64,000 nt of DNA from Morinoia aosen (Eukaryota > Arthropoda > Malacostraca > Amphipoda > Talitridae): contig CM059577.1 of NCBI GenBank assembly GCA_030386875.1, forward strand, positions 20,657,038 through 20,721,037, given 5' to 3'. Shown piece after piece: positions 1-28,542 of the stretch (its first letter is position 1; the number at the start of each line of letters is the position of its first letter). A program made the position numbers and the translations under genes. The notes under the pieces were generated by a model, which did no database searches, had not been told where the DNA came from, and saw only the letters and a program-made list of their open reading frames with translations.

Positions 1-1800
1 CTTCCGCGATTTTCCAATCATATTAAATAGGAAAAATTACCTTCGCTGCAACGGAGTCGCATTTTATCACTCAAGTCATGAAAAATTCAATAAAATATTT
101 ATAGAATTTTCTTGATAAAAGCGAGAATGAAAAAATAAAATTCAAGGATTTGCGGCGCTTTGTCGTAATTCGAAAATCTATTGATGAAATACGTACAATC
201 CTTAACAAGTTCTTCAGCACATTATTAGTGAACTTGTAATTATTCTCTATTCTCTAACTAGGAATAAATAAATTTAATCAGCATTTGAAAACTACACGAT
301 ATCCTTATATTTGTTGTATCACGACTGTACAATGATAAAAAATGAAATTAAACATTGGAAGTTAAATAAAATGCTTATCAGAATTTATCATAGGGAAAAT
401 ATCAAGGGCTGCCTATGTTAAGGAAACCGTCCCACTTTTTCAACTTTTTTCGTCCGATTCGTTTGAAAATTGGACAGTATATGTCTTTTGTAAAAGTAAA
501 CTGTTTTTACTCCTGTGATTTTTTCGATTTAGGCCTTATTTTTTTTTTGACGAAAAATGAGTTTTTGGTATATTTTTATTGAAATTTCAGATGGAAACTC
601 CCTATTCAGTTTTGATGGTAGAACAAAAACAAAGACAGTTTTAGAACCCTTGGAACATTTCTAACAAACTCAAATTTGGCTTTTTTTGAAATTTAAATTT
701 TTTCTATTTTTTCAAAATTTTTTGATATTTCAAAAATCAGCAACATTTTTTTGGGTTTAGAGCTATATATTTTTTCAAAGAATTCTAATTTGAAAAAAAG
801 GCGAATTAGAGTTTGTTAGAAATGTTTCAAGGATTCTAAAACTGTCTTTTGATTTGTTCTAGCATCAAAACTCGAAGGCGAGTATCGTTTTGAATGTTGA
901 AAATTACTTTTTTTGAGTATAAGCCATAACAAAATATTTGGTTGAAGTGTAATATAATGAACAATTGATGTAATTGAATGCAGTTTTAATTTTTATTTTA
1001 ATAAAATCCATACATAACTTCATATTCAAAGTGTGAATTGTGATTTAAAAAAAAAAAAATTATCATTTTTTTTTTCAACAAAATGAATTTTTTTATTTTC
1101 AGTCTGATTCTTATAAAATTTGAGTATGATATGTAACCTTTGAAAAGAAACACAATTGATTCCATTCATTTTTTTTATTCAGGCCTTAGATTTTGCAAAA
1201 ATTTGACATATTGGTTTTCAGATATTGATATTTCACTAATATTGATATTTCATAATGGAACTCCTCCATCAGTTTTGATGCTAGAGCAAAAGCAAAGACC
1301 GTTTTAGAATCCTTGGAACATTTCTAACAAACTCAAATTCGCCTTTTTTTTAATTTCCCATTTGTTCTCTTTTTATATGGGGTCAAAATCGGGAAAAAAT
1401 GGAATATTTTGGGTGCTTTTCATTTATATTGATATTTCAAAATGGAACTCCTCCTCCAGTTTCGATGCTAGAGCAAAAGCAAAGACCGTTTTAGAATCCT
1501 TGGAACATTTCTAACAAACTCAAATTGAGCTTTTTTTCTATTTCCTATTTGTTCTCTTTTTATGTGGGGTCAAAATCGGAAAAATTGAAAGAGTTTGGTC
1601 ACCTTACCCCCCCCGGGGGGGGAAAATTATTTTCCGTAGCGCCATAAAATTTTAGGAACGAATAGTCTACCACCTAAGGGTCCTTTTACAACAAAAGCAT
1701 GCAAAATGACCATGGTATCGACAGAATCTGGCAAGGGCCTGGGACGGGTTCCTTAAATTAGAAAATATTTAGTCCTGTATCCCTCGCAGACTTGATAAAA
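1..1800. repeat. AT-rich region with four copies of a ~95-bp block
   Basis: No gene is visible. A block beginning ATGGAACTCC and running through CTTGGAACATTTCTAACAAA occurs at about 591-690, 1,251-1,350 and 1,438-1,543 in direct orientation, and as its reverse complement at about 791-874. The first and the inverted copy could fold into a stem with a ~100-nt loop. The last two copies lie in a ~187-bp tandem duplication that also includes a TTGTTCTCTTTTTAT segment. At about 1,610-1,622 a C-run directly abuts a G-run, forming a G/C palindrome. The block is probably part of an unclassified dispersed repeat. Confidence 0.6.
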
Positions 1801-1804
1801 TATA

Positions 1805-3308
1805 CAGGGGGGGGGGGCAAAATAATACAACACATTAACTAAACTGCCAGATTCCACATTGCTAAGCCACGTACAATTACGGAAATTGGACTATATATAA
1901 ACATTAGTGTAAAAAGCTCAATAATATGTCTAAAATCGACAAATGTTTAATAGAAAAAATATATAAGAACATGTGTGATAAGTGCGTGAACAAAAGTTTG
2001 CAATACCCGGATTTTTTCTCGATATTATTCATTAAAATTATTGTAGTAGTATTCCAGAATGTTGTAATACATTCTAATATTTGGTAAACGAACTTACGTC
2101 CGCATTCATCTCCAATAACGTGTCATTTGTACAGTAGCTCTCGTTCTAAAAAGTCGCAAGCGTGGGAAAGAATAAGAACACCAGCCAAGACCTTCGCGAA
2201 CGTAATCTGGAGCTCTATAATGAAGGTTTGGGATATCGGAAAGTATGTGCCCCACTGAGTGTTCCAATGGCCTCGGTTGAAACCATAATATATAAGTGAA
2301 AATGCCGGAATACGACTCTCAGAAAGCCTCGAACTGGTCGTCCACGGAAAATTAACGACCGTGCTGCTCGAAAATTGGTCCGAACAGCTGTACAGAGGCC
2401 TCAAACTACTCGTGAAGAATTGAAGGATGGTCGCAAGGCATCTGGATTAAAAGCCAGCAAACACACGATCAGCAGGACACTACGCCGTGAACGATTTCAC
2501 TCCCGCACCCCTCGTAAGACACCTTTTCCAGAAACGTTACGTCAAGGTCAGGCTGAAGTATGCCATGCCAACGACCCTTTGAAGAAGCCAGCAGCAGTTT
2601 GGAACTCATTACTGTGGTCAGATGAAACCAAAATCGAACTATTTGGGAGAAACAGCACAAACCATGTTCGGAGGCAACGAAACGAAGAGTATAAACCAAA
2701 GGGCACCACATCCACTGTTGAGGTTGGAGGTGGCTCAATCATGGTATGGGGATGTTTCAGCGTATCAGGGATAGGTAAACTTCACATCACTGAAGGAACC
2801 ATGAATGGCAGGAAATATTGAAAAATGTTGGAAGAACAACTCTTACCTTCAGCTCGTTTGTTAAAATTGAAACGTGGTTGGACCTTTCAACATGACAATG
2901 ATCCATAGCATTCTGCAGACGAAACCAAGAAATGACCGAAGATGAAGAAGATAAACATTTTAGAATGTCCAAGTCAATCACCGGATATGAATTCGATCGA
3001 AAACTTTTGGAGGAAGATTCAAAAGAGAGGTTCCAGTAACATCACTGAACTCAAAGAAATTTGTATTCTTGAAAAATGGAATATGATTACACCCTAAATC
3101 TTTAAAAGGCTGGTAGTGACTTTTGTTCACGTATTTAGAATATATGTTCCTGTATATTTTTTCTATTACATATTAGTAGGTTTTAGATATATTATTAACC
3201 CTTTTATATTATTGTTCATACATAGTCCAACTTTCGTAATTTCACGTGGTATAGAAATGTGGAATCTGGCGATTTAATCAAGGTTTTGTATTATTTTAAC
3301 CTACAGTG
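1805..3308 (+). mobile_element. Tc1-family DNA transposon, decayed
   Basis: Cut-and-paste transposon of about 1.5 kb. Its ends form imperfect inverted repeats of roughly 80 bp. The left arm (about 1,805-1,895) contains AAAATAATACAA and GCCAGATTCCACATT, then TACGGAAATTGGACTAT; the right arm (about 3,222-3,308) holds the reverse complements in mirror order. The right end terminates CAGTG followed by TA, and the left end starts CAGGG preceded by TA, as expected for Tc1 elements, which insert at TA. A G-run has expanded at the left end. The single internal gene is broken (see the transposase entry), so the copy is non-autonomous. Confidence 0.8.
2140..3099 (+). pseudogene. Tc1-like transposase pseudogene
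   Basis: Remnant of a DDE transposase that would cut and rejoin the ends of its own element. The best open stretch (2,375-2,821) reads through the end of the DNA-binding region into the catalytic domain, with WSDETKIELFG around the first catalytic Asp and GGGSIMVWGCFS after it. After a TGA at 2,819 the same frame continues with FQHDNDP, an in-frame stop where family members have Lys, then SPDMNSIENFW around the third acidic residue, and a final segment near 3,090. An N-terminal helix-turn-helix part is recognisable near 2,140-2,370 but interrupted. At least three stops show that it is inactive. Family identity is clear from the motifs and from the flanking inverted repeats. Confidence 0.85.
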
Positions 3309-5602
3309 TAAATATGTGTTTCTGAACTAGCATGAAATCTTTGGCAACAGATTGATGCATAGCTCTGTATTAGCATGCTTAGAACATATTTCATTGTTTC
3401 ATCCCCGTCTGAATCCTATACTAACGATGATAGGGTCAAGTCAAAAGTATGTGTCCAAGTTGTTATTAAACTAATTTTAAGATAATGTATAATGGAGGGG
3501 GCAACTGAGGCTTGTATGATACAATACGAAACCCAGCTGGTCATGGCGTCTAATGATAAAACAATGTTAGTTACTGCCCTCAAGCTCTGTCCTCTTCAAA
3601 AACTACTAGTTTTAGTTCATAATCAGGGTTTTGTAATCAAAGTAGCCAACTACTACCATGAAAATTCTATTAAGAAATTAACAGACTTTCGGTCGAGTGC
3701 ATATGCTTCGAGCGGCACGACGTTGAGGAAAGTCAAAGACAACCATTTAGTGATAAAAAATCAACCGCCAGCAAAACATTTTTTACCCGCTTTTGCTGGT
3801 ACAAAGTTCAGCCCCGTAATTTTAATCTGTCTTTGAAGTGTTATTCATGTAACGAGGTCATTTTGGATAGAGTGAATGTTAATTAAAACGGCTACGAATG
3901 TTCACAACTGCTAAATAAAAATTTTAAAACAATATTCAGTGTTACGAGGCGATGATGAGTTCAGCAAAAACTTCGTTTTTCTCACTATTTTTCATTCGAT
4001 GTTGCAGTCGACATACTGAATGTAAGTCGCGAAGTCGCTTGAGGACATGACTGAAATGAATTGACAAAAATGATTTCGTTTCGAATTTAGTTAAATTAAA
4101 TTAGATCATCATGAACATTTTGAGCAGAAGAATTTATTTCTCATTGGAATCGTAGGTGTTGAGGCTATCGTCCGCTAAATGAACTGTAAGGCGAATTTTT
4201 TTGATGGTGATTTACCCTCGGTGTTTTATACGCTCAAAGAACGTTATTTTACAAAATGATCTCGCAAACTGAACGTCTCTGGGCAAGGCGATTAAAGCAA
4301 TACGTTATGATCATACCATGTGATCAAACTATCCCATATTGACAAATGATGTATACTACTGATGACTCGAGTAGACTATGCTATCTTAGGACAGAATTAA
4401 TTACGGTAGTTGAAATGTGATGTTTGGTTTAAACACAGGAAGTCGTTAAAAATTTAGGCGAGTCTAAGTAACTTTTCTTTAAAGTAGAACGTAGTGCATG
4501 CATATTCTAATAGTTATCTGCCTCACGCTAACATTTTCTGAAATCCTAAGGAAACGAGTACTTTATTACTTCTGAGAGGGGTATGAATTCATATTTTAGT
4601 GTGATGACTAGCGCCTGCAAAGACTTTGTATTTTTAATTAGAATACGATAGTTGGTGATTTTAGAGCAGCAGTTACAGTTTCAGTGCGAGAATGTGTTAC
4701 GGTATATGGTTAAGATTTATAAAACGTTTCACGTATGTAAAATTGACGATTAAAACCAACACTGCTGCCCTTCAGAAAAGTCACCATCTGCCGTAAATTC
4801 TATCAGCTATGATTTATAACCTACAGCTGTTGATTCAAAGAAGAGTATAATTCCTGTACTGTAATTCAAATTTATTTCACGCCGACTTGAGCAAGAGTAT
4901 TTTCCTCACTTCGTAATAAATCTCTTACAGTACGGGCCAGTTGTCATAACGACTTGTACAAATATCTTCATCTTCATACCTCATCAGCATATCTGCATTG
5001 CGTCTCAGGTTGTTCTTTCGTCTAACAATCGCGAGCTATACTGACAGAGACAGTGGAACTTTACATCAGTAGTGTACCTTTCGATTTATATTTTCTAAAT
5101 AAATCTTACAATTTAGGTTACCATAAATTCCTATTTATCTCTGAATACAATGAGGCTTGTTACTGAAAGTCGATCCCAAGGTGAAAATAGTGCTCCTGTA
5201 TAATTCACGGGAAAATTGAAAGCATTCTTTTTTGTGATTTTTTTAGTTTTATCTTAAGATAAAAACGATGTTTGGGCTTATTTAAGTACTACTTTGTGTG
5301 GTCTGCACTTCACTATTTGAGTTTGCAGTGATGTTCGTTGAAAGACGTATAATATTTCTCAATCAAAATTAGTTGATGAGTCTAAAACCAAGCTTGATTT
5401 CCATTTTTGAATGCCTTACTTAGAGAACAGACATCAGTGCTACGGTTGCAACAGAAATCCCAAGCTTGCTATTCAAAAATTTCTCATCAAGAACAAATTA
5501 GAAACAAATCTATTGTTTGTCAAGGTGTATCAGTTAATTAAGAGATCCATTAATTCGTACGTGTGTAACTCGTAACTTTACCCTTTGTTCCGTAACCCCC
5601 AG
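3309..5602. other. No gene recognised (probable intron of the COE gene)
   Basis: AT-rich sequence with no exon-like block. An ORF at 3,492-3,836 has no recognisable domain and no splice or promoter context. If the COE gene is intact, this stretch lies in the intron that separates its DNA-binding exons, outside the window, from the IPT exon at 5,603. Confidence 0.5.
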
Positions 5603-5769
5603 GCGTATACCCCTCAGGTCTATACCCTCCCCTCCCCGCCACGCCCTGCGTCAAGGCCATCTGCCCCTCTGAGGGCTGGACCACCGGCGGCGCCACTGTC
5701 ATCATCGTGGGTGACAACTTCTTCGATGGACTGCAGGTGGTCTTCGGCAGCACCCTCGTGTGGAGCGAG
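5603..5769 (+). CDS. kn: COE/EBF transcription factor (collier/knot), IPT-domain exon
   Basis: First exon of the COE gene in this window. COE proteins are dimeric DNA-binding factors acting in the nucleus; in insects the single member (collier/knot) specifies neurons, muscle, head segment and blood-cell fates. The frame reads [18 protein letters not shown] and then [18 protein letters not shown], followed by [13 protein letters not shown]: the start of the IPT/TIG immunoglobulin-like fold, diagnostic for COE. The exon ends at GAG followed by GTCAGT, in phase 0. Two in-frame acceptors exist, AG at 5,601-5,602 and AG at 5,616-5,617; using the second would drop five residues. The zinc-knuckle DNA-binding exons are not in the window. 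This exon is much more GC-rich than its surroundings, as are the other COE exons. Confidence 0.93.
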
Positions 5770-8641
5770 GTCAGTTCTGCCTATAGGGCACATTTGGGGC
5801 AAATGCGCCAGTCATTACTCCGAATACATTGTTGTCGATACCGTCGTGCGGTCGATGTAAGGGTTCGTGGAAAAGGGGGCTGTCTTCTGTGCAGCTACCT
5901 TTTTCCGGGGCGCTAGCTTTTCTTCGCAGCTGCCCTTCCTGAGGTTCGTGTGGGTCCCGCCTACGCCGTAATCAGTCCGCTAGGGCAACAGAAGTAATTT
6001 CTGTTAGTGCCGAACTACGTCGGTACCGTCGTGTGTGTGGGGTGAGGTTTGTGTGGGTACCACCTGCGCCGTATTCAGTCCGCTAGGGCAACAGAAGTTA
6101 TTTCTGTTTTGTGCCGAACTACGGTGGCACCGCTTGAGTGAGGTGTGTGTGTGTGGGTACCGCCTACGCCGTATTCAATCCGCTAGGGCAACAGAAGTAA
6201 ATTCCGTTTTCTGCCGAACTACGGCGGTACAGTTAGGAAGACGAGCAACTGTCTGCGCCGTATTAGACCGCTAGGGCAACAGAAGTGAATTCTGTTAGTG
6301 CCGAACTGCGACAGCGTCTTCCTAATCGACCAACTATGCGAAATAAATTTTCCTTCCGAGGTGGCTCCTTAAACCCCTTATTAGGCGAGGTCTCGTATGA
6401 AACTAAAGCCTGTGTCAATAAGGAGAAAGGAAACTTTTTTGACATTATTGTCTGAGTGGGATGTTGCTGAATCTCTTTGAAATCCCTATTACATACACTG
6501 ATATATTTTAACAAAGACAGTGATTTATTTTCTGTTGCAAACATAGTGCGTACACACATGAGTTACTGCATAACAAGGTACAACACTCAAAATTGCATTT
6601 AAAATATTAGTCTTATTTAGCTAGGTAATCAAAGAAACATTGTAATATCGGCATGTAATACAAATGATATTAAGGGCTAACAAAAGGAAATGCACAGACG
6701 CAACATCAGCGCAGAGAAACAGGCAAGTCGGCGTTCAGGGAGCTGGACACATAAAGAAAATACTTGGGATTATGGGTAACTAACACAAAAGGCTCAGCAA
6801 CCCTTGTGCGGCCTGACAATTGTTTTTTACTTCTGAGGGAGTGTATAAAATTTATAAACCCTCTAAAAACGATTAAGTGCAAAGTTATTGTCTTGGTGGG
6901 AAGTATCTCCCGATTTTTTTTTTAAGGGACGAGCATAATATAGCAGCAAGTGTTGAGTTTTCTTGCTGCGCTGCGATTGCGTTCTTCAATTTTTCATATT
7001 TTCTACATTTTCCGCTTCAAGAACGTTGTACGTGTTTCTTCTATGAATTTGTGGCTGAAGGCCGTTGATTCCGGAACTGCATTTTTTATTTAAAATGTTA
7101 TTTTGTTGAATTCAGCATTTGGCCGGACGACGTGCCGTCGGTCCGTACAGTAATGCTTGAAATAAGAAATAAAATAATTAAATAGCTTACAGATACGAAG
7201 AAATTAATCAGTTAGGGGATAAATATTATTTCATTAATAGAGTACAGTGATATATAACATACATTCAAAAATAAGCATATTTTCTTAAATGAAGATTATG
7301 CTTTAGAAAGATTTGAGGTAACCAGTAATTTTAAGTTGTACACTGTTATGGCGCGTCATTCATTGAGCGTTGGCAGTAGCATTGTTCCAGGAAATAAGGC
7401 CAGTTACCTTAATTTTTGCAGCGCTTGCTGAAAACCATTGACGACGACCTGTGTTTATCTCGGTTGAAATTTGAGCTCAAGGTTAGAGGTTTTCAGTAAT
7501 TGAATCTGTCTGACTGGTTTCGTACAATGACAGATATAAGATGGTCAAGTTCGTGAATCTCATCGACGGACATCACCCAGCTATTCATAAGTCACACATG
7601 TCCTATAGTTTAGTGATAAATTTTTGAATCTTGGTCTGCTAACGAGAGAATGAAGAATTACCACGTATGAATTCAATAGTAAAAAACCAATTCATCTCAT
7701 ATGATACTCAAAAGTGTGTTTGAATATCCGTAGATTTATGCATGTAGATCATTTTGTTAGTTTTTTAATACTTCTACGACCTTTCCAAAGTTAGTCGAAA
7801 AATTTACGAAGTAGTCATAAAGCTTATAAAACTAGAGACTTCAATTGTATAATAACTTAGGTTAACTGATGAAAATTTCGTATATTTTAGAGCAAACTCG
7901 GCAATACTTGTACGAATAGGTATACATTTTCAAAAAGTATATTTGCCCAAACTTTCATAATTCTTCATCTTGTGAACTACGGGCCGATGATAGTTTTCGC
8001 AATGTATGCATGCCTGTAAACTAATTTTTATTTCTTTTACACGGTTATATGAAATTTTTCTTTCAGGAGGTTGTCTGGATAATGTACCTATGAAACGAAG
8101 TTTTCAATTTCTTCCTTTGGTTGTAAGAAACCTGGCTTGGTTCCCTAAAAACAGAAGACCAGGCTTACTCTACTCATCCAAACACGCCTTACTGAAATTA
8201 ATAGCACTCAACATTCTTGCTTGTAGTGTGATTTGTAATGCAACTTACAGTATTTGTACTGTAGTGTGATTTTTAATGCAACTTTGTAATGCATTGTAAT
8301 GCATGTATATTGCTACGAGCAAGATGACTTTAAGCCTAGCTCAAACTGTGAAAACTTTAAACGTCATTCTCGGGGTAATGTGACTGTTGGGAATTTTTAT
8401 TATTTTGGTCCTTGCGGTTTTTAAAAATTAAAAACAAGCTAATACGCTCATATAGCGTGATATATCATGCGTTATTAAGGTTGCAGTATTTCAGGTGTTC
8501 TATTTCCTACTGCTTAAGTTTTCGTGAGTTCGACAGAAAAGGATTCGCTGATGATGCTAATAGAAGAATATTGGTGCCTTATTAGTAAAAGAATGTTGGT
8601 GTCTTGTTAGTAAAAGAATATGTTGGTGCATGTGTGTTCAG
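5770..8641 (+). other. COE intron with ~100-bp tandem repeat
   Basis: Intron of about 2.9 kb with a GT donor at 5,770 and an AG acceptor at 8,640-8,641. It carries a tandem repeat just after the donor (separate entry) and otherwise AT-rich sequence. A ~60-bp segment at about 8,400-8,460 recurs at 10,431-10,493 in another COE intron. No other gene is seen inside. Confidence 0.75.
5930..6320. repeat. Four-copy tandem repeat, 88-103 bp units, with internal hairpins
   Basis: The string CCGCTAGGGCAACAGAAG starts at 5,977, 6,080, 6,180 and 6,268, giving spacings of 103, 100 and 88 bp. Each copy continues with a short stem AACAGAA/TTCTGTT, then TGCCGAACTACG, and most are separated by a GTGTGTGGGTACC-type spacer. 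The block sits about 200 bp downstream of the COE IPT exon and is GC-rich for this region. Function unknown; it could be an eroded satellite fragment or an intronic regulatory cluster. Confidence 0.8.
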
Positions 8642-25221: not shown

Positions 25222-25542
25222 TGTTATAACTGAGAACCCCTCAGGGGGATACAACTATTGTATCTATGGGAATTAGCGCTCCCAGGGGACCCATGTGTGG
25301 GCCCGAGCTTAAGGTTAGGTAGGCTTCCTTTTTGTTGTAATAAAATAGGTTTTTGTTTTAAAATGAAGGTTATAGCGAAGACAATAGATTTAAAATACAT
25401 ATCTATTAAAAATTAGGACGTTTCGATCATCTAGATCATCATCAGCTATTCTGAAATACAAGAAATGACAAATTAAGACCGGTAATAAAAACCATTCAGT
25501 AAGTAATATAGTATGTACACGAATGAAAATTAAAAAAGAAAA

Positions 25543-26793
25543 TTACGTAATACCTATTTTCAATGGATAGGAAGACTGCATGTCATTAAGGTTAGGTTTC
25601 AATTTGCTAATAAAGAGGGATTCAAGAATGCGTAAATTAAAACAAGAACCTGCAGAACCTAATATTGAAAAATTTTCGAGCGAGATATTTGTATTACATT
25701 TTTCAGCATGGATTCTAATAGCGGAATGGGAAGGCCTACTTAATGGAATACCAGTCCTAAAACTTCTACCACTGTGTTCAAATACCCTCGTAGATAGCAA
25801 CCGAGATGTCGAACCGACATACACAGACCCACACAGTGGGCAACAGTACTTGTATACAACAGAGGAAAGCATTGAAATGGGTAGTCTATCTTTAAAATGA
25901 AAAAATGAACCAATTTTGAAATTATTAACCAAAATAATTTGAAGGTCAACACAGGGAAAATATTTCACAACTAATGAGAGCAATTGTTCTTTTAACTTCT
26001 CAGACTGAACACCGAAGTAAGGAATGGTGACGAACAATTTCTTCTTATCTACAGTCAACACAGTAGCAACGGTGGAATACTTTTTATTTAAAAATTGCTT
26101 GAGATACTTTTGAATATAATATAAAGGATAACCATTTTTTACGAAAAACTGCTTTAAAAATTCAAACTCATTATGCAATAATGAATAACTTGAACATATT
26201 TCATAAGCCCGAAAAAAAAGGGTTTTCATGCTATTGATTTTAAATAAAAAAGAAGAATACGAGAAATAACTTAAACCCAAACCAGTAAAAGTGCTTTTCC
26301 TGTAAACAGAGGTACAAAAAGTGGAGCCTGATCGTTGGACAAGACAGTCTAAAAAAGGTAATTTATTGTTTGCTTCAGTCTCCATGGTAAATTTAATATT
26401 TTGGTGTTTACTATTAATATAATCAAGAAACAAAAGAGAGTGGTTTCTATCTCGGAACAAAACAAAAGTATCATCAACGTATCTGCGGTAAAATATTGGT
26501 TTAAAATTATTTGGACATTCAGACAGCCATATTCGTTCATGATGTGACATAAAAATATTCGCGAAAGTTGGACCCAAAGGCAGCCCCATACCCAATCCCT
26601 CGATTTGTTTGTAGTATTTGCCATTAAAAATGAAAAATGAGAACCTAACTGCAAGATCTAACAGGGTTTTAAATGCTACACGACTAAGGTTGCAAACGGT
26701 CTGTTCCACTTCAAATAATTGCTGCAAACAAATATCAATTGTTTCAGTTAACGGAATATTGGTAAACAAATTTTCGACATCAAAAGACGTCAT
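25543..26793 (-). CDS. Penelope-like reverse transcriptase with GIY-YIG endonuclease (left arm, 5'-truncated)
   Basis: 416 codons open from ATG at 26,793. In Penelope-like elements this protein nicks the target and reverse-transcribes the element RNA. The frame starts inside the RT domain at FDVENLFTNIPL (residues 4-15, catalytic Asp 5), then GLPLGPTFANIFM (70-82) and YVDD (105-108), the polymerase active site. A linker with a CPLC zinc-finger-like pair (318-321) leads into the GIY-YIG nuclease: VYVGSTSR (324-331), EH (339-340), a late Glu at 391 and KPNLN (399-403). The N-terminal RT motifs are absent, so the protein is roughly half the usual family length and unlikely to work. The product is identical to that of the right arm. 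Confidence 0.93.
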   Translation of the reverse strand: MTSFDVENLFTNIPLTETIDICLQQLFEVEQTVCNLSRVAFKTLLDLAVRFSFFIFNGKYYKQIEGLGMGLPLGPTFANIFMSHHERIWLSECPNNFKPIFYRRYVDDTFVLFRDRNHSLLFLDYINSKHQNIKFTMETEANNKLPFLDCLVQRSGSTFCTSVYRKSTFTGLGLSYFSYSSFLFKINSMKTLFFRAYEICSSYSLLHNEFEFLKQFFVKNGYPLYYIQKYLKQFLNKKYSTVATVLTVDKKKLFVTIPYFGVQSEKLKEQLLSLVVKYFPCVDLQIILVNNFKIGSFFHFKDRLPISMLSSVVYKYCCPLCGSVYVGSTSRLLSTRVFEHSGRSFRTGIPLSRPSHSAIRIHAEKCNTNISLENFSILGSAGSCFNLRILESLFISKLKPNLNDMQSSYPLKIGIT

Positions 26794-26805
26794 GTAAAAT
26801 TTTAC

Positions 26806-28056
26806 ATGACGTCTTTTGATGTCGAAAATTTGTTTACCAATATTCCGTTAACTGAAACAATTGATATTTGTTTGCAGCAATTATTTGAAGTGGAACAGAC
26901 CGTTTGCAACCTTAGTCGTGTAGCATTTAAAACCCTGTTAGATCTTGCAGTTAGGTTCTCATTTTTCATTTTTAATGGCAAATACTACAAACAAATCGAG
27001 GGATTGGGTATGGGGCTGCCTTTGGGTCCAACTTTCGCGAATATTTTTATGTCACATCATGAACGAATATGGCTGTCTGAATGTCCAAATAATTTTAAAC
27101 CAATATTTTACCGCAGATACGTTGATGATACTTTTGTTTTGTTCCGAGATAGAAACCACTCTCTTTTGTTTCTTGATTATATTAATAGTAAACACCAAAA
27201 TATTAAATTTACCATGGAGACTGAAGCAAACAATAAATTACCTTTTTTAGACTGTCTTGTCCAACGATCAGGCTCCACTTTTTGTACCTCTGTTTACAGG
27301 AAAAGCACTTTTACTGGTTTGGGTTTAAGTTATTTCTCGTATTCTTCTTTTTTATTTAAAATCAATAGCATGAAAACCCTTTTTTTTCGGGCTTATGAAA
27401 TATGTTCAAGTTATTCATTATTGCATAATGAGTTTGAATTTTTAAAGCAGTTTTTCGTAAAAAATGGTTATCCTTTATATTATATTCAAAAGTATCTCAA
27501 GCAATTTTTAAATAAAAAGTATTCCACCGTTGCTACTGTGTTGACTGTAGATAAGAAGAAATTGTTCGTCACCATTCCTTACTTCGGTGTTCAGTCTGAG
27601 AAGTTAAAAGAACAATTGCTCTCATTAGTTGTGAAATATTTTCCCTGTGTTGACCTTCAAATTATTTTGGTTAATAATTTCAAAATTGGTTCATTTTTTC
27701 ATTTTAAAGATAGACTACCCATTTCAATGCTTTCCTCTGTTGTATACAAGTACTGTTGCCCACTGTGTGGGTCTGTGTATGTCGGTTCGACATCTCGGTT
27801 GCTATCTACGAGGGTATTTGAACACAGTGGTAGAAGTTTTAGGACTGGTATTCCATTAAGTAGGCCTTCCCATTCCGCTATTAGAATCCATGCTGAAAAA
27901 TGTAATACAAATATCTCGCTCGAAAATTTTTCAATATTAGGTTCTGCAGGTTCTTGTTTTAATTTACGCATTCTTGAATCCCTCTTTATTAGCAAATTGA
28001 AACCTAACCTTAATGACATGCAGTCTTCCTATCCATTGAAAATAGGTATTACGTAA
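26806..28056 (+). CDS. Penelope-like reverse transcriptase with GIY-YIG endonuclease (right arm, 5'-truncated)
   Basis: Exact mirror of the left-arm gene: the same 416 residues on the opposite strand, starting 12 bp after it, with the two start codons facing away from each other across the palindrome centre. It begins at the A motif of RT and retains YVDD and the complete GIY-YIG domain. The absence of any amino-acid or antisense-frame difference between arms implies a very recent event or active homogenisation. As in the other arm, the start codon is an internal Met of the ancestral protein rather than its native start. Confidence 0.93.
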   Translation: MTSFDVENLFTNIPLTETIDICLQQLFEVEQTVCNLSRVAFKTLLDLAVRFSFFIFNGKYYKQIEGLGMGLPLGPTFANIFMSHHERIWLSECPNNFKPIFYRRYVDDTFVLFRDRNHSLLFLDYINSKHQNIKFTMETEANNKLPFLDCLVQRSGSTFCTSVYRKSTFTGLGLSYFSYSSFLFKINSMKTLFFRAYEICSSYSLLHNEFEFLKQFFVKNGYPLYYIQKYLKQFLNKKYSTVATVLTVDKKKLFVTIPYFGVQSEKLKEQLLSLVVKYFPCVDLQIILVNNFKIGSFFHFKDRLPISMLSSVVYKYCCPLCGSVYVGSTSRLLSTRVFEHSGRSFRTGIPLSRPSHSAIRIHAEKCNTNISLENFSILGSAGSCFNLRILESLFISKLKPNLNDMQSSYPLKIGIT

Positions 28057-28153
28057 TTTTCTTTTTTAATTTTCATTCGTGTACATACTATATTACTTAC
28101 TGAATGGTTTTTATTACCGGTCTTAATTTGTCATTTCTTGTATTTCAGAATAG

Positions 28154-28183
28154 CTGATGATGATCTAGATGATCGAAACGTCC
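28154..28183 (+). ncRNA. Hammerhead-ribozyme-like motif of Penelope-like element (right arm; mirror at 25,416-25,445)
   Basis: CTGATGA, then a self-complementary GATC-TAGAT-GATC stem, then GAAACGTC, in the order of the hammerhead catalytic core (CUGANGA, stem II, GAAA). Penelope-like elements are known to carry such ribozymes near their ends. Stem II here would be short and has an unpaired base next to the core, so cleavage activity is uncertain. The mirror copy on the minus strand lies at 25,416-25,445. Confidence 0.5.
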
Positions 28184-28542
28184 TAATTTTTAATAGATAT
28201 GTATTTTAAATCTATTGTCTTCGCTATAACCTTCATTTTAAAGCTTTGCCGTGTGGTGCAACCTAATCTAATTAAGGTTTTTGTTTTGTTACGGACCATC
28301 TTTTTTCAGTTCACTGCTGTCCTGTTTTTCAGCACCTACTACTTTCTTCTTCAACTTTTTTTCTTGTTTCATGAACTTCTTTCCTAGCTTACTGTTTCTG
28401 TGCACCTTGTGCATAGATTCCACGTTCCCTCAACTCCATACTAAATGGTGCCTTCCTCTTCCCTCTCTTGGAACATCTTTGTCGTGGTTAAGGGAGGCTA
28501 AAACTTTCTTATATAATAATAATAATAATGTTATAACTGAGA

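Follow-up and report, generated by a model that had tools for sequence, protein, structure and literature searches.

The window analysed here, a 64,000-nt stretch of the genome of the amphipod Morinoia aosen (assembly GCA_030386875.1, contig CM059577.1, forward-strand positions 20,657,038 to 20,721,037), holds a palindrome made of two 5'-truncated copies of a Penelope-like element (PLE), which lie head to head in a dispersed repeat resembling short interspersed nuclear elements (SINE-like repeat). The head-to-head form is usual in this PLE family, and the same palindrome was found at a second site with different flanks. A pair of this kind probably arises as one PLE insertion in which each of the two target strands primes reverse transcription, and a palindromic copy may itself serve as the template of a new insertion. 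The analysis was based on one genome assembly, in which the palindrome and its surroundings have the following parts.

25240-25346, no strand: left flank tested, SINE-like host repeat, matching other repeat copies
25347-25359, no strand: left copy of the target site duplication AGGTTTTTGTTTT, an exact repeat of 28275-28287 that occurs once in unoccupied host copies
25357-26799, minus strand: left arm, 5'-truncated PLE with its tailless end (inner start site) outermost, the perfect reverse complement of the right arm
26791-26808, no strand: head-to-head junction CATGTAAAATTTTACATG with zero spacer; AAATTT stands at the same spot in ordinary copies (GACAAATTTTACATG)
26800-28242, plus strand: right arm, 5'-truncated PLE copy, by sequence comparison of the arms
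28199-28275, plus strand: ATG in the pseudo-long terminal repeat (pseudo-LTR) that opens a frame through the tail
28243-28275, plus strand: 33-nt PLE tail GCTTTGCCGTGTGGTGCAACCTAATCTAATTAA, between two inferred reverse-transcription start sites, from genomic matches and the order of parts in another copy (L019)
28275-28287, no strand: right copy of the target site duplication, an exact repeat of the left copy
28288-28400, no strand: right flank tested, same SINE-like host repeat as on the left, matching other repeat copies

In line with the original prediction, the two 1,443-bp arms are perfect reverse complements with 0 mismatches, and they meet at 26799/26800 with a spacer of 0. Apart from this pair, no palindrome without a spacer in the window has arms longer than 15 bp, so the structure is not due to chance; the junction itself occurs once in the window. 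The 13-bp duplication encloses the pair, the final 3 bases of its left copy being also the first bases of the perfect arm, and the presence of one duplication around both arms bears out the proposal that they entered as a single unit. The absence of divergence between the arms, likewise noticed before, is real and fits a young age, and homogenisation of the arms is possible. At the right end, 33 bp are unmirrored; since 1 base is common with the duplication, the predicted count of 32 is also fair, and the stretch turned out to be the tail of the PLE. In L019 the order is pseudo-LTR end, tail and open reading frame (ORF), and in the window a frame that begins with the ATG at 28199 reads through the tail; the unmirrored 33 bp are the PLE tail and lie within the start of the ORF. 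In L019 and one further copy, L011, the letters beyond the tail run on into ORF sequence.

A 233-bp sequence made of the two flanks with one duplication copy between them had 2,672 candidate places in the genome. All of the 40 places scored matched it at 98%; the match was full-length in 39 and covered 1-232 in the remaining one. The four alignments printed contained the duplication as a single copy. These matches demonstrate that unoccupied copies of the host repeat exist, as had been predicted from the window for the copies examined there. A further PLE insertion (L064, C21:4201380-4204440, 2250-2962) has flanks that both match those of the window at 83-85%; it struck this SINE-like repeat at the identical position and has its own duplication AAAATGTTTTTT. 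One flank of another insertion, L062, is also within this host repeat. From sequence likeness, the spot shared by the window and L064 is a possible target hot spot.

The family was surveyed with a 35-mer across the arm end and the tail, which had 97 genomic matches with up to 3 mismatches and 0 with the reversed pattern as a control. The 3' ends of the family in the genome numbered 540, the matches listed being the first 100, and were not used for a genome-wide count of pairing. Inspection covered every exact tail (41) and a part of the 56 tails that have 1-3 mismatches. Removal of the segmental duplicates L010, L045 and L027 and of the element-internal tail in L019 left 37 independent insertions, and a comparison of their 80-bp flanks revealed no further common locus, only common host repeats. 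A tailless head-to-head partner was present in 26 of the 37 insertions; one was complex (L055), and ten had no partner in the fetched slice, whose element side spans 2.9-3.5 kb (L051, L054, L058, L059, L061, L062, L063, L067, L068 and L069; the element in L063 is interrupted and may extend past the slice).

The ends of the pairs are highly regular. The tailless arm ended at position 1439-1444 in 26 of 26 cases, a 6-nt stretch ca. 33 nt upstream of the tail end (two position rulers were used, differing by one base), and in all 26 paired exact-tail insertions both ends fell on reverse-transcription start sites of the same element strand. An exact target duplication of at least 7 bp (median 12) was found in 24 of the 26, compared with 44 of 328 mismatched pairs, and it frequently overlaps the TTTTAAA of the tailless end. 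The tail was carried by the shorter arm in 14 of the 26 insertions and by the longer arm in nine, with equal arms in three. In none of the 37 insertions was a second tail seen; the sole insertion seen with tails at both ends was L039 (C21:71834370-71837660), outside the 37. Tiny head-to-head insertions with arms of ca. 20-70 bp, which keep one tail and both start sites (L029, L034, L036 and L056), were also seen and are possibly near the smallest products of the insertion mechanism.

The two arms of one insertion share a common source. Arms within an insertion agreed in 229 of the 242 comparisons made at 25 balanced subfamily sites across 25 insertions (with the window and L010 omitted as copies of the second-site palindrome, L009), compared with 3,206 of 6,250 (51%) between insertions, and 0 of 2,000 permutations reached the observed concordance. 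The 13 disagreements comprised three in L013, which form a patch, two each in L018, L025 and L046, and one each in L011, L020, L044 and L052. An earlier measure, arms as mutual closest relatives (10 of 27 insertions), was set aside in favour of the balanced-site test as not decisive, since younger copies have shorter branches. L013 (C20:54129000-54137500, 1286-5982) is a 4.7-kb near-palindromic insertion, and one of its arms carries a three-site patch from another subfamily (positions -135, -93 and -90), which may reflect template switching, gene conversion or the use of a second RNA. The impression from self-alignment that L013 is a full palindrome was discarded, its arm ends lying 74 nt apart.

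Truncation points were taken by hand from BLAST ends, that of L011 lying past the ruler and being estimated. Equal truncation (within 1 nt) was found in two of 25 insertions, the type shared by the window and L009 (counted as one) and L065, and 38 of 20,000 permutations reached this; it is consistent with a single RNA having been copied two times as far as its 5' end. Among 24 junctions, judged by BLAST ends that are ruler-limited in L011 and L020 (L017 omitted for its fold-back; window and L009 counted once), 11 had an overlap of 1-11 bp, two were blunt, nine had 1-20 extra bases and two had more. To judge from these sequences, the junctions of the family look like end joining. L065 (C21:95543420-95546480, 91-1406) is a second, older zero-spacer palindrome whose arms both start at 800; 22 of 640 positions differ between them, but none that lies closer than 149 bp to the centre, a result matched by 0.26% of placements drawn uniformly, so that the centre appears as if homogenised.

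From the anatomy, the duplication, the unoccupied host copies, the pattern of one tailed and one tailless arm in 26 pairs and the common source of the arms, all of which were observed, we infer dual priming, the use of one RNA twice and end joining. The PLE nuclease would cut a T-rich site in the SINE-like repeat with a stagger of ca. 13 nt. One target 3' end would prime a complementary DNA (cDNA) at the outer start site, the end of the 33-nt tail, and the other would start another cDNA at the inner site (TTTTAAA, ca. 33 nt upstream), templated by the same RNA or by RNA from the same source. Both cDNAs would extend toward the RNA 5' end and halt at the same place, and their ends, joined over AAATTT in the window, would be filled in to give a palindrome within a target duplication. 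Separate priming of the two cDNAs would explain why the tailed arm is the shorter in 14 of 26 insertions and why the tailless end halts at the inner start site. A template switch of the second strand where the element is truncated, which had been suggested for the window, is not supported as a general mechanism, as the arms are separately truncated, each has its own start and the tailed arm is the shorter in those 14 insertions. In vitro, the purified PLE protein of Anolis cleaves both target strands and extends them, using two neighbouring internal sites at either end of the tail (PMC11167929). By analogy, the element's protein would extend both strands in the present family too.

Several observations weigh against dual priming as the general route. 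Ten of the 37 tails lack a partner in the slice, and one-armed insertions may be common. Among the 18 non-palindromic loci first fetched, L013, L025, L026 and L019 are head to head with no tail at the insertion end; one end in L013, L025 and L026, and both ends in L019, are off the two start sites. L065 and L020 are without a clear target duplication (6 bp each), 13 of the 242 arm comparisons disagree, and the comparison of arm lengths depends on the hand-read truncation points, including the estimate for L011. According to PMC11167929, no start-site difference is apparent between the strands, unlike the pattern of one tail per paired insertion seen here (with L039, which has two, as the exception).

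Two further loci bear on these points. L049 and L050 (C11), two copies of one locus, contain a one-armed tailless insertion with a AATATGAC duplication apparent by eye; this insertion would have started at the inner site without a partner arm. In L017 (C21:19554600-19562600, 4232-4270) and its duplicate L027, a fold-back of ca. 39 nt is followed by a jump to position 1044; no other junction in the set points so clearly to self-priming or template jumping.

The genome search for pairs that share the junction, which the original prediction had proposed, found the uninterrupted junction region in three places, namely the window, C12:18999426 (L009) and C22:21233083 (L010). L009 and L010 have common flanks (99.95% identity over at least 8 kb), which contain tandem repeats; they are therefore one insertion that was duplicated, and the sequences suggest either a recent interchromosomal duplication or an assembly duplicate carrying the palindrome. 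The window and L009 have only the palindrome and its tail in common, with 2,920 aligned bases 100% identical (99.93% between the window and L010), and their target duplications differ (AGGTTTTTGTTTT in the window and TAAATATATTTT at the second site). This is the sole junction-sharing set with different flanks among the sets found; L044/L045, L017/L027 and L049/L050 were rejected as cases of recurrence, being segmental duplications with flanks in common.

The arms of the palindrome carry 12 alleles that are present in at most one other sampled arm. Genome-wide, k-mers over three private variants (positions 15, 474 and 731) matched only the six palindrome arms, and a fourth (position 1120) matched these and L053 only. 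L053 is a head-to-head insertion, ca. 1-2% diverged, whose arms begin at ca. 858-875; since both its arms carry two of the private alleles, it stems from the same lineage as the palindrome. Among the 40 scored of 2,687 candidates, the closest other copies of the full-length arms were 98% identical, and the short arm of L048 (293 bp) was 100% identical by the alignment printout, with 1 difference in the 259 columns compared.

Either the second insertion was copied from a palindrome, or both insertions stem from a source whose RNA has a set 5' terminus at the junction and which was not found in the assembly. We favour re-transcription and reinsertion of the palindromic copy as the account of the recurrence. 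In that case, a head-to-head dimer would propagate as a palindrome: it would be transcribed, its RNA would be copied by both target strands, and the cDNAs, complementary over their full length, would rejoin without loss, so that every insertion would restore both the junction and the sequence identity of the arms. We put this forward tentatively, as a serious possibility. Three points count against such re-mobilisation: the palindromes retain only ca. 77 nt of the ORF start; Anolis RNA required the first 172 nt of the ORF in vitro (PMC11167929); and no 5' sequence of the ORF was found beside L009, L010 or the window palindrome, where there were only chance matches of 13-18 nt.

A somewhat unlikely alternative is that the palindrome was never a template and that a short RNA with its 5' end exactly at the junction was copied by run-off from both primed strands, independently at the two insertions, which is compatible with dual priming and rivals only the account of the recurrence. 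This would require no copying through a 1.4-kb RNA hairpin, and it agrees with the arms within one insertion coming from one source, with the zero-spacer palindrome of L065, which joins without shared bases (by BLAST ends) as run-off predicts, and with L053, in which the same source lineage produced another head-to-head insertion. However, it needs a source locus and a defined RNA 5' end at position 1. The genome-wide k-mers at positions 15, 474 and 731 offered no candidate for this source apart from the six palindrome arms, the k-mer at position 1120 adds only L053 with its arms from ca. 858-875, and no other insertion among the loci inspected is truncated at position 1.

As for the head-to-head arrangement, it is improbable that it arose by self-priming, in which one cDNA or antisense RNA folds back and is extended into a head-to-head pair, as proposed for rotifer PLEs (PMC3846280). 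Self-priming accounts for identical arms and for palindromes at junctions, and the fold-back of L017/L027 is a case in point. However, fold-back would make the first arm the longer one, whereas the tail is on the shorter arm in 14 of 26 insertions, and it predicts a copied tail or flank at the tailless end, which instead lies at the inner start site in every one of the 26 pairs. Two neighbouring separate PLE insertions, or two RNAs from different source copies, are highly improbable: the patch in one arm of L013 and the disagreement of L018, L025 and L046 at two balanced sites each would suit them, but a single duplication surrounds the pair, each pair has one tail, and the arms agree in 229 of 242 comparisons. 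Long perfect palindromes are typical of chimeric reads; an assembly fold-back artefact, which the original prediction had already dismissed, is nevertheless the least likely explanation and very unlikely because the identical palindrome at the second site carries its own duplication, and the asymmetry of tail and duplication and the unoccupied host copies also contradict it.

Beyond these features, the palindrome contains coding and RNA-like elements, as listed below.

26806-28056, plus strand: 416-codon open frame, putative C-terminal part of a PLE polyprotein (reverse transcriptase and beyond) without the N-terminus, from the Pfam RVT_1 match
25543-26793, minus strand: identical 416-codon open frame in the left arm, from the open-frame listing
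28154-28182, plus strand: hammerhead-ribozyme-like core CTGATGA...GAAAC in the pseudo-LTR, assigned by eye
25417-25445, minus strand: mirror copy of the hammerhead-like core, by palindrome symmetry, with CTGATGA on the minus strand at 25439-25445

The 416-aa frame matched Pfam RVT_1 over residues 1-136 (E 1e-8). It contains a reverse transcriptase domain, whose placement on the PLE branch is provisional. A putative GIY-YIG endonuclease in the C-terminal part, where the motifs resemble those of PLE endonucleases, had no Pfam match at E<=10 and no PDB match at E<=1. The single-sequence structure model of the protein was too poor to use (mean predicted local distance difference test score 42.2). 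No Rfam family reached its gathering score at the hammerhead-like core, and none of five weak matches at E<=5 was a hammerhead. A search of plasmid records returned nothing. Two further traits by which PLEs are recognised were found, namely a pseudo-LTR repeated upstream of the ORF with a tail of 30-40 nt inside the ORF start (L019; ATG at 28199), and an inverted or variable arrangement with one tail and short duplications at AT-rich sites (26 of 37 insertions). Two start sites of reverse transcription would bound the tail, as reported for the element PAc of Anolis (PMC11167929).

The head-to-head PLE structure with one tail is itself of a known kind. In the rotifer Adineta vaga, endonuclease-containing Penelope elements (Pen2a_Av and others) form head-to-head insertions with one tail and a duplication; such variable structures are conserved among animals with endonuclease-containing PLEs, and the rotifer insertions were explained by self-priming on an antisense RNA template (PMC3846280). 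In contrast to that account, the insertion ends of the present family fall on two fixed start sites, and it is often the shorter arm that carries the tail; an identical palindrome at two sites, present in this genome, is not described in the accessible portions of PMC3846280. The Poseidon element of Anolis carolinensis, PAc, resembles the present family in having AT-rich targets and two adjacent internal start sites that bound a tail in the ORF start; its cleavage and extension of both target strands and its hammerhead motif at the ORF start may likewise have counterparts here (PMC11167929). The PAc work differs in resting on in vitro data and tandem loci, with no strand difference in start site, and genomic head-to-head insertions are not discussed in its accessible portions (PMC11167929), according to which further steps of PLE insertion are yet to be validated.

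The literature searched, which covers few subscription journals, contained, in the portions accessible, no link of both-strand extension to head-to-head PLE insertions (PMC11167929, PMC3846280, PMC12910113 and PMC7599744), no case of the same PLE palindrome at two sites and no use of a two-start-site family pattern as evidence against fold-back.

A different comparison is offered by LINE-1 twin priming, in which both target strand ends prime on the element RNA. There, an inverted 5' part stands beside a 3' part from one RNA with little overlap, whereas the PLE arms here both start near the 3' region of the RNA and overlap, in the window wholly.

As a natural record, the PLE family of M. aosen agrees with dual priming at two start sites, and it yields rules that can be tested: each paired insertion has a single tail, either arm may carry it, and both arms come from one source. 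The repeated palindrome indicates that an inverted-repeat product seems able to serve as a template or to recur from one. Such a palindrome could, moreover, supply the host with perfect double-stranded RNA for silencing the family.

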